Positions 26,459-29,507 of a DNA stretch of 41,873 bases are shown here, in pieces (position 1 is the stretch's first letter; the number at the start of each line of letters is the position of its first letter). The notes below the pieces were generated by a model. That model ran no database searches and was not told the origin of the DNA. It was given only the letters and a program-made list of their open reading frames with translations. The position numbers and the translations under genes were made by a program. This DNA is from Rhodospirillales bacterium (GTDB lineage Bacteria; Pseudomonadota; Alphaproteobacteria; Rhodospirillales; JAPHRK01): positions 1 through 41,873 of the forward strand of contig JAPHRK010000014.1 in the NCBI GenBank assembly GCA_026196105.1, in the 5' to 3' direction.

Positions 26459-26956
26459 ATGTTAAAAGCAGGCGATAAAGTACCATCAGTTACTTTCCAC
26501 ACCCGTCAAGATGGGGATTGGGTCGATGTGACCACCGACGAGATTTTTAATGGAAAAACTATTGTTGTTTTCGCCCTTCCTGGCGCATTTACTCCAACCT
26601 GTTCATCCACTCACCTCCCTGGTTACGTTGCTATGTCTGAGCAATTTGCCGCTGCTGGTGTTGATGATATTTACTGTCTATCAGTCAACGACTCTTTCGT
26701 CATGAACGCCTGGGCAAAAGACCAGCGTATTGATGATGAAGTTAAACTGATCCCTGATGGGGCTGGTGAGTTCTCAAAAGGCATGGGCCAATTAGTTAAC
26801 AAAGACGTCATCGGCTTCGGCAATCGCTCCTGGCGCTATTCCATGCTGGTTAAAGACGGTGTAATCGACAAAATGTTCATCGAAGATACCAACACCCCAG
26901 GTGATCCGTTTGAAGTTAGCGATGCCCAAACTATGATGGGTTATATTAAAGGGTAA
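26459..26956 (+). CDS. Peroxiredoxin (Prx5/AhpE-like, atypical 2-Cys or 1-Cys)
   Basis: This 165-residue thiol peroxidase reduces H2O2 and organic peroxides. The peroxidatic Cys48 lies in [20 protein letters not shown], the Prx5 hallmark. Another Cys (about 73) is in [10 protein letters not shown]. The body and C-terminus ([21 protein letters not shown]) follow the Prx5 family; there is no glutaredoxin fusion. The start at 26459 is preceded by GAGGAGA. It is transcribed divergently from oxyR under a likely OxyR-controlled promoter and ends at a strong terminator. Confidence 0.96.
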
Positions 26957-27110: not shown

Positions 27111-27533
27111 ATGAGAATTTGTGGAGTGGATATCAAATCGGATGAAGCGCGAATCACTCTCGTGGAATTTGGAGAAGGTGAAGTGCAAATAGTTCAGTCA
27201 CAAGTTAAAAAAATAAAGCTAGGTGACGATACCAATAGAGATAACTTAAGGTCATTTTTACAAACTTTTCAGGGTGTTGTTTCCGACAATGGGATCGACC
27301 GTATAGTTATCAAGAGTAGGCAAAAAAAAGGAAAAATGGCTGGAGGCGCTGTATCCTTTAAAATCGAAACATTAATACAGCTATTGGATGGTTGTGAAGT
27401 CGATTTTATTTCGCCTATCTCCATTTCCTCTTATATTAAAAAAAACCCGATGACGAAACCTATTGAATTGCTTGAGTATCAAAAGGATGCTTATTTTGCC
27501 GCAGTTATAAACTTTCTTCGAAACGGTGTTTAG
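27111..27533 (+). CDS. DUF3010 family protein (RNase H/RuvC-like fold suspected)
   Basis: This 140-residue protein closely fits the DUF3010 pattern: MRICGVDIKSDEARITLVEF at the start, LGDDTNRDNLRSFLQTF, then IDRIVIKSRQKKGKMAGGAVSFKIE, and a late YQKDAYFAAVINFL. The order of strands and helices and the acidic residues at Asp7 and near the end (Asp in KDAYF) suggest an RNase H-like fold, but the motif set is incomplete and catalysis is unproven. AAGGTGG precedes the ATG. The gene is followed 2 bp later by the kinase gene. Base use here is clearly more AT-rich by eye than in the flanking genes, suggesting acquisition. Known DUF3010 genes I recall are mainly gammaproteobacterial and of unknown function. 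Confidence 0.82.
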   Translation: MRICGVDIKSDEARITLVEFGEGEVQIVQSQVKKIKLGDDTNRDNLRSFLQTFQGVVSDNGIDRIVIKSRQKKGKMAGGAVSFKIETLIQLLDGCEVDFISPISISSYIKKNPMTKPIELLEYQKDAYFAAVINFLRNGV

Positions 27534-27535
27534 TT

Positions 27536-28651
27536 GTGATTGATATTGATCTTATTGATGCCGATGACGAAATTAAAAACTCACTTCGATCGTTGTCTTC
27601 AAAAATTAATTTTGAAGTTGAAGAAACCAAAGGGGCTAATGGTCATCTTTTCTTTGGGACGAATACGTTTCTCGGAAAACGTGTTGCTATAAAGTACTAT
27701 TATTGGGGAGAGGATAGGGAGACATATGCCGAACCAAAGCAATTGTCGGATCTTTCTTCCGAGTACATTGTAGAGATATTAGATGCGGGGCCAGTTGATG
27801 AAAATTGGGCGTATTTTATAACAGAGTATTGTGTAAACGGCGACCTAGAGAGTGCCATTGTACGCAATGACATAGGAAATACTCTAGCAATTGATTGGAC
27901 ATCGCAATTATTGAGCGGGTTAATTTATTTACATGCCAAAAATTACCTTCACAGAGATATTAAGCTATCCAATGTATTTTTGAATGGAGACAATGTTGTC
28001 CAAATAGGTGATTTTGGTTCAATAATATGCATTCCAAATGGAAGCAAAGAAATTCCCGCTTCGAATCAAACTTTAATGTATAGGCCTCCTGAGACTATCA
28101 CTGATAAGGTTTATAGTCAGGTTAGTGATGTTTATCAGGTTGGAGTGGTTTTATATCTTTTGTTAGGAGGAAGTTTATCCATTACCCAAACGGACTACCT
28201 AAGTGCAAAGCAATTGCGGGAATACAACGAGATTGGAGATATTGTCGATAGGCAATTATTTGCTGAACAGTGCATTGGTGAGTTAATTGCAAAAGGGAAG
28301 TTTTTGGATTATTCGAGTTTGCCTCCGTGGGTTTCAAATCGAATAAAACAACTGATAAAAAAGGCTACGAACAAAGATAGAAATAAACGATATAAAACGG
28401 CATCTGAGTTTCTCGCAGCATTACATGACTTGAAGCATCGAAATATCATGTGGGACTTTGATGAAGATGGCCTGCTAAGTACTGCAGGGTATAAGAAATT
28501 TAGTGTAGTGGAATGTGGAGATAATTTTAGAGTGAAAAAAAAGTTAAAAATGGCTGGCAGTTTGACAATTCCTTTTCGATGGGGACTCTTCAAGAAGTCA
28601 TCACGGAAGTGGAAGACAGGCTTTCCTAATTGTCAGCAAAGGATTACATAA
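27536..28651 (+). CDS. Ser/Thr protein kinase, C-terminus possibly frameshifted
   Basis: This Hanks-type kinase starts GTG at 27536. Its domain covers about residues 25-300. It has the VAIKYYYWG Lys, the catalytic loop YLHRDIKLSNVFL, the metal-binding GDFGS and an APE-like RPPET segment. The reading frame continues to 371 residues, but after residue 336 the tail (LKMAGSLTIPFRWGLFKKSSR...) is basic and without protein-like pattern. The change follows an A8-G run (28535-28543). Reading -1 from there gives VKNGWQFDNSFSMGTLQEV... to a stop at 28629 (364 residues), which looks much more natural. No transmembrane segment is visible. It is coupled to the DUF3010 gene. Its substrate is unknown; a regulatory or defence role is possible. 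Confidence 0.78.
   Translation: MIDIDLIDADDEIKNSLRSLSSKINFEVEETKGANGHLFFGTNTFLGKRVAIKYYYWGEDRETYAEPKQLSDLSSEYIVEILDAGPVDENWAYFITEYCVNGDLESAIVRNDIGNTLAIDWTSQLLSGLIYLHAKNYLHRDIKLSNVFLNGDNVVQIGDFGSIICIPNGSKEIPASNQTLMYRPPETITDKVYSQVSDVYQVGVVLYLLLGGSLSITQTDYLSAKQLREYNEIGDIVDRQLFAEQCIGELIAKGKFLDYSSLPPWVSNRIKQLIKKATNKDRNKRYKTASEFLAALHDLKHRNIMWDFDEDGLLSTAGYKKFSVVECGDNFRVKKKLKMAGSLTIPFRWGLFKKSSRKWKTGFPNCQQRIT
28537..28543 (+). other. Heptamer A AAA AAG in kinase frame: possible -1 slippery site or frameshift
   Basis: The zero-frame codons here are AAA AAA AAG, so the sequence A AAA AAG is in register for -1 slippage as at dnaX. GGAG lies about 16 bases upstream, farther than usual. I see no strong stem just downstream. 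A homopolymer indel is at least as likely. Confidence 0.5.
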
Positions 28652-28652
28652 T

Positions 28653-29507
28653 TTACTTAGGGTCTTGTGATCCACTCACACAGCGCTCAATACCTGATAA
28701 ATCTTTTTTGATTCCTATTTGGCTGTAGCCATTTTTTTGAAGCAATCCGCTCACATCTAGCGCTTGATGAATGCCAACCTCAAAGACTAACAAGCCGTTT
28801 GGTTTTAAAAACTGTATGGCCTGTTCAGGGATTTCTTTGTAGCAATCTAGCCCATCTTCCCCTCCGAACAATGCCATATGGGGTTCGTGATCGGCGACTT
28901 CGGGTTCTAGGTTTGCTTTATCCGCTTTGGGAATATAGGGGGGGTTGGAGATTATGATGTTGAATTCTCCGGTGGCTCCCTCAAACCAACTTCCTTGCTT
29001 GAATGTAGCACGACCTTCTAGGCCCAAGGATTGGGCATTCTCTATTGCAACAAGTAAGGCTTCTTCACTTAAATCCACGCCGACTCCGCTTGCGTGGGGG
29101 AATTCGCTGAGGAGGGATAGGAGGAGGCAACCGGTGCCGGTACCTAGATCGAGGATGCGAAGTTTTTCGGTTTTGTCCTCGATCCGTTCAAGGACGGCCT
29201 CAATCAGGGTTTCGCTGTCTGGTCGCGGGGTTAGGGTGTGTTTGTTAACTTTGAAAGCCAGACCCCAGAATTCTTTTTCGCCAAAGATATGGGATATGGG
29301 CTCGCGGTTTGCGCGTCGGTGCACAGCTTGATCAAAAGAAGGAATAGTGTCCTTGGGTACTTCTAAATCTGGGCGGCCTAAGACTTTTGCCATATCCACA
29401 TCAAAAAAATGACAGGCTAGAAGTTGAGCTTCACGTCGTGGGTTATCAATATTTGCTTCTTGAAGCTTTGTGGTGGCTTCAGAGATCAATGTGCCTAAGG
29501 CACTCAT
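28653..29507 (-). CDS. prmC: Release factor glutamine methyltransferase PrmC
   Basis: PrmC methylates the GGQ glutamine of release factors with SAM. The 284-residue protein has the SAM-binding motif [16 protein letters not shown] and the catalytic NPPY motif in [14 protein letters not shown]. The helical N-terminal region contains LLACHFFDV, and [25 protein letters not shown] is also present. Its start overlaps the prfA stop by 4 bases, pairing it with its substrate RF1. Its stop is one base from the end of the kinase gene. Confidence 0.96.

Follow-up and report, generated by a model that had tools for sequence, protein, structure and literature searches.

A kinase gene in the window (the whole stretch of DNA analysed, 41,873 nucleotides) changes frame close to its 3′ end: the kinase domain lies in one frame, here called the 0 frame, the C-terminus of its family lies in the −1 frame, and the transition between the two sits at a run of eight A's or a few bases from it. 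This frame change exceeds chance. It is very likely the result of a one-base change in the length of the A run, whether genuine or introduced by the assembly, and programmed −1 frameshifting at the site is unsupported.

The kinase ORF occupies positions 27536-28651 of the forward strand, starts with a GTG at 27536 and encodes 371 amino acids. Its 0 frame passes through the A run for 336 codons (27536-28543), as delimited from PF00069 and the homologue alignments, and residues 32-289 match Pkinase PF00069 with an E value of 6.2e-36 and 124.6 bits, against a gathering cut-off of 31.7. K53, H139-R140-D141 and D159-F160-G161, which we take to be the kinase lysine and the HRD and DFG motifs, are invariant in a four-row alignment of the kinase with three homologues. 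The A8-G run at 28535-28543 (forward strand) is in phase with the GTG start, which places the heptamer A_AAA_AAG at 28537-28543; coordinates and register are as an earlier reading of the DNA, made from the sequence only, had given them. Past the run, the 0 frame continues for 35 codons and a stop codon at 28649-28651 (28544-28651), the −1 frame for 28 codons and a stop codon at 28627-28629 (28543-28629), in agreement with the tail lengths and the −1 end point of that reading, and the +1 frame stops immediately. The sequence of the −1 tail is VKNGWQFDNSFSMGTLQEVITEVEDRLS, and NGWQFDNSFSMGTLQEVITEVEDR is a peptide of this frame.

Directly upstream, with two bases between its end and the kinase start, a gene at 27111-27533 of the forward strand encodes a 140-residue protein that matches DUF3010 (PF11215) over profile positions 1-134 of 137, with an E value of 3.4e-41 and 141.2 bits against a cut-off of 25. 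PMC3985635 assigns DUF3010 to the RNase H-like superfamily. The unit formed by the two genes (27111-28629) has a G+C content of 37.3%, compared with 45.8% in the rest of the window. It is flanked by ordinary genes, namely an ORF at 26459-26956 that is presumably peroxiredoxin-like and a convergent prmC-type gene on the reverse strand (28653-29507; PF17827 PrmC_N, E 2.7e-17) that bounds it downstream. An AT-rich unit set between ordinary genes is a pattern such as an acquired insert would produce.

Five distinct full-length homologues were used: L010, from a genome of the same class and 37% identical; L042, on a plasmid of Rhizobium sp. BG6, to which L044 of R. grahamii BG7 is identical; L043, on pHG1 of Cupriavidus necator H16; and L129 and L130, from genomes of the same phylum. 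Among the 181 loci checked, eight frames reach position 345 of the homologue profile or beyond. Seven of these are the five homologues themselves, with scores of at least 535 bits (L047 is the L010 gene again, and L044 duplicates L042), and the eighth, L013 (89 bits, 608 aa), was left out. Eighty of the loci checked for position 345, and for that purpose only, came from a contig scan with alignment A1, in which general kinases dominate and the best segments of the loci kept are 23-31% identical. A contig scan with the kinase alone gave 18 stretches with a pattern match, none of them a relative by tblastn; a scan of viral contigs found no kinase relative, and none of 15 phage records covers 80% of the kinase query.

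Closer to the window, relatives are scarce. A DNA search of 40 close relatives matched the genome's own copy only, and its family is represented by this one genome. Across 150 genomes of the order, matches were confined to the own genome and to G481 and G482, where they end at query residue 312 or earlier and do not extend to profile position 345. In the class, 55 of 385 genomes have a match at E 0.001, and the own genome and G295 are the only ones with a match better than 1e-12 that covers the C-terminal half; G295 is also the sole match (E 1e-40) among 18 genomes of its order. Pfam has no family above cut-off for the C-terminal part of L042, that of L129 or the −1 tail of the window; one match to L042, at E 0.076, falls below its cut-off.

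The profile used for scoring was built from the five homologues with the window excluded and has a length of 365. The window's kinase scores 337.8 bits up to the A run; the 0-frame tail adds 1.0 bit to this (338.8 bits), whereas the −1 tail raises it to 362.5 bits and carries the alignment to profile position 362. Shuffling either tail 300 times gave a maximum of 354.5 bits (mean 340.8) for the −1 tail and of 345.8 bits for the 0 tail, so the family's C-terminus lies in the −1 frame. Codon usage, scored over 28543-28627 after training on 402 kb of the genome, weakly prefers the same frame (+3.3 vs −3.0). On these comparisons, the genuine end of the protein, as its family has it, is the −1 tail. 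The earlier reading had suggested as much and had proposed a comparison with the C-termini of homologues, which we ran and which gives a match to the −1 frame and none to the 0-frame tail. Moving the frame change to an A5 run at 28546-28550 lowers the score to 360.5 bits; this cost of 2 bits favours the A8 run as the site of the change without proving it.

The sequence-only reading had offered an indel or a sequencing error as the alternative to programmed slippage, and had held that homologues with an uninterrupted frame would reduce the matter to a simple indel. All five homologues are read in a single uninterrupted frame and none of their genes contains A_AAA_AAG in phase at any point, so that by this standard the case is one of a simple indel. 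Within this explanation, a real and recent indel by replication slippage has a little better than an even chance. An assembly or sequencing error, by which the true run has another length and the kinase is intact, is distinctly less probable, though a serious contender. In favour of an error, all five homologues are intact, and frame breaks in unclustered genes that are confirmed by homology are expected to be mostly errors (PMC3711429). The same paper also states that breaks near the 3′ end of such genes reflect real indels more often than those at other positions do.

Run lengths in the genome bear on the same choice. A 402-kb sample holds 36 A/T runs of eight and a single run of nine, a ratio below that of the whole genome and in the direction expected of an error. 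Genome-wide, however, 308 A8 and 26 A9 runs give an A9/A8 ratio of 0.084, within the range of 0.076-0.183 found in 24 other genomes of the order (those with at least 150 A8 counts, out of 99), nine of which lie lower; a global undercalling of A runs was rejected on this ground. Frames were also followed across A/T runs of at least seven, each read on both strands with flanks of 120 bases. Of 370 readings, 75 are flanked on either side by coding-like sequence; the frame is kept in 70 of them, which led us to discard a general frame problem at such runs, and no break inside a gene is seen in any of the 75. Judged from their translations, four of the five exceptions look to us like junctions between adjacent genes, and the fifth is probably non-coding. 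The kinase site itself could not enter the set of 75, as its −1 tail falls short of the flank length. Since the assembly has no general problem at runs of this kind, a real one-base change is somewhat likelier than an error.

Programmed ribosomal −1 frameshifting of the dnaX type, by which A_AAA_AAG would direct the synthesis of two C-termini, is highly improbable here. The phase of the heptamer is right and the family's C-terminus is encoded in the −1 frame, as such a mechanism would require. The heptamer by itself is unremarkable, since in-phase A_AAA_AAG or A_AAA_AAA (47 sites) is present in 42 of the 247 ORFs that reach 200 aa in a genome sample and since the same kinase gene has a second in-phase A_AAA_AAG at 28357-28363 of the forward strand. 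This second copy serves as an internal control: it is read without a frame change, the 0 frame continuing to match the family beyond it. Shine-Dalgarno stimulators of −1 frameshifting are spaced about 10-14 nt upstream of the slippery site. The nearest GGAG (28517-28520, forward strand) ends 16 nt before the heptamer, outside this spacing, and the sequence-only reading had called its distance unusual. That reading had also seen no strong downstream stem, and indeed the RNA downstream of the heptamer is of ordinary stability: the 77 nt that follow, folded without pseudoknots, give a z of 0.16, and 103 of 200 shuffled versions fold at least as stably. In mobile elements, some proven A-run frameshift sites have no established stimulator, according to PMC4066793, so the missing stem is no proof.

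The tRNA complement argues in the same direction as the homologues. The E. coli site is described in PMC5009743 as highly shift-prone because the sole tRNA-Lys pairs weakly with AAG. The present genome differs from E. coli, in which AAG is decoded by tRNA-Lys(UUU) alone: it encodes tRNA-Lys genes with both CTT and TTT anticodons (L180, L181), and by the argument of that paper the presence of tRNA-Lys(CUU) should make AAG less shift-prone. The paper adds that the possession of two lysine tRNAs may explain why Thermus relies on RNA polymerase slippage instead. The searches of close relatives, having returned only the genome's own copy, leave room for a recoding site restricted to this lineage. 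Programmed −1 slippage, the first option in the title of the sequence-only reading, has the heptamer itself in its favour and nothing further.

Slippage of RNA polymerase, which would add an A to a share of the transcripts and so yield a set proportion of family-type kinase, is very unlikely as a used mechanism. Insertions by slippage on A/T runs increase with run length and go in the direction needed (PMC5574713), such slippage reaches about 20-25% on the 11 A's of tssM1 in Citrobacter rodentium (PMC4256274), and an 8A repeat has been bypassed under laboratory drift (PMC3812077). Against this, the critical length in many genomes is nine, eight A's being called non-slippery in PMC1088944, and the kinase run, with eight, is below that length. 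Nor is an A run with an in-phase heptamer conserved in the five homologues.

As in the window, a DUF3010 gene lies directly 5′ of the kinase gene at L010, L042, L129 and L130, four of the five homologues; the annotated genes around L043 include no DUF3010. Neighbouring genes were scanned at L129, L130 and L043, and these three of the five homologues have a defence-type neighbourhood: an McrBC-type gene near L129 (PF10117, E 2.9e-102), a YhcG-type nuclease near L130 (PF06250, E 5.9e-64; PADLOC PDC-S02, E 2.4e-150) and, near L043, an IetA-type ATPase (PADLOC, E 9.5e-76) with an S8 peptidase annotated after it. On plasmids, DUF3010 matches occur in ten records, and two of these, both from Rhizobium, also hold the kinase among the 20 of 27 kinase records listed; the DUF3010 gene of a Roseobacter plasmid has no annotated kinase adjoining. 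A fixed pairing is disfavoured, since DUF3010 is also found without this kinase. Among the papers searched, none gave an account of a two-gene anti-phage system of an RNase H-like protein and a serine/threonine kinase; DUF3010 is mentioned in PMC3985635 and PMC10441182. From gene order and neighbourhood, the DUF3010-kinase pair may be a candidate for an undescribed two-gene defence module.

Another rival is phase variation, in which the length of the A run would switch within a population and toggle the C-terminus. On/off switching occurs among defence-type genes, and at three of the five homologues the related unit has such genes nearby. The sense strand of the unit in the window carries A8 runs at three places (27322-27329, 27438-27445 and 28535-28542). 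At least three such runs are, however, reached in 7.5% of 5000 synonymous-codon shuffles of the unit, so that the excess is unconvincing, and the first two runs sit in the uninterrupted frame of the DUF3010 gene. Phase variation is accordingly a very poor prospect, hardly to be expected. Selection for A8 runs in the unit was set aside as an explanation, as composition nearly accounts for three. The broader proposal, of a DUF3010-kinase module that lies close to established or candidate defence genes in other bacteria and whose activity would be set by alternating the kinase C-terminus through a change in length of the A8 run or slippage on it, is itself improbable.

A one-base change in the run thus remains the preferred explanation, and the history it suggests can be outlined as follows. 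The kinase is the second gene of a two-gene unit with DUF3010, and its A run (28535-28542) is offset by one base from the frame that the homologues keep, probably following a change in run length that arose by replication slippage or else as an error of assembly or sequencing. Provided that the run is real, the main product would consist of the whole kinase domain followed by 35 unrelated residues in place of the conserved 28, and a minority of chains may gain the family's end through an A added by the polymerase or a slip of the ribosome. A small leak of this kind is plausible, the run being at most slightly leaky; transcriptional slippage fits in direction because it adds an A (PMC5574713). 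Such a leak would be incidental rather than programmed.

Taken by itself, the finding is another frame break in an A run and chiefly a warning for annotation: the predicted kinase very probably departs from the family's sequence in its final 35 residues. Should the A8 run prove both real and leaky, the gene would allow a clean measurement of the amount of correct C-terminus that slippage on eight A's yields in a bacterial cell where both lysine tRNAs are present. The pair of tRNA-Lys genes, CTT and TTT, bears on any claim of A_AAA_AAG frameshifting in this genome.

Several known systems resemble the case in part. The best PADLOC matches of the kinase domain are mad6 (E 2.5e-44) and PD-T4-6 (E 1.9e-29), so that the kinases of MAD6 (MADS) and PD-T4-6 are its nearest counterparts there. 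Compared by kinase alone, it differs from MAD6, scoring 67.6 bits on the NCBIfam MAD6 model against a cut-off of 460, and membership in MADS was not assigned. With dnaX-type frameshifting, it has an in-phase A_AAA_AAG in common; it is unlike that type in its lack of an unusual stem, the 16-nt distance of the GGAG, the second lysine tRNA and the unconserved site. The remaining group comprises frame breaks in A runs that are bypassed by slippage, as described for pseudo pseudogenes (PMC1088944), the 8A repeat of M.HaeIII (PMC3812077) and tssM1 (PMC4256274). The run in the kinase is eight, compared with nine in PMC1088944 and 11 in tssM1 (PMC4256274), and bypass is putative in the kinase; with this group it shares a conserved C-terminal part that lies out of frame past an A run in a gene whose relatives are uninterrupted.
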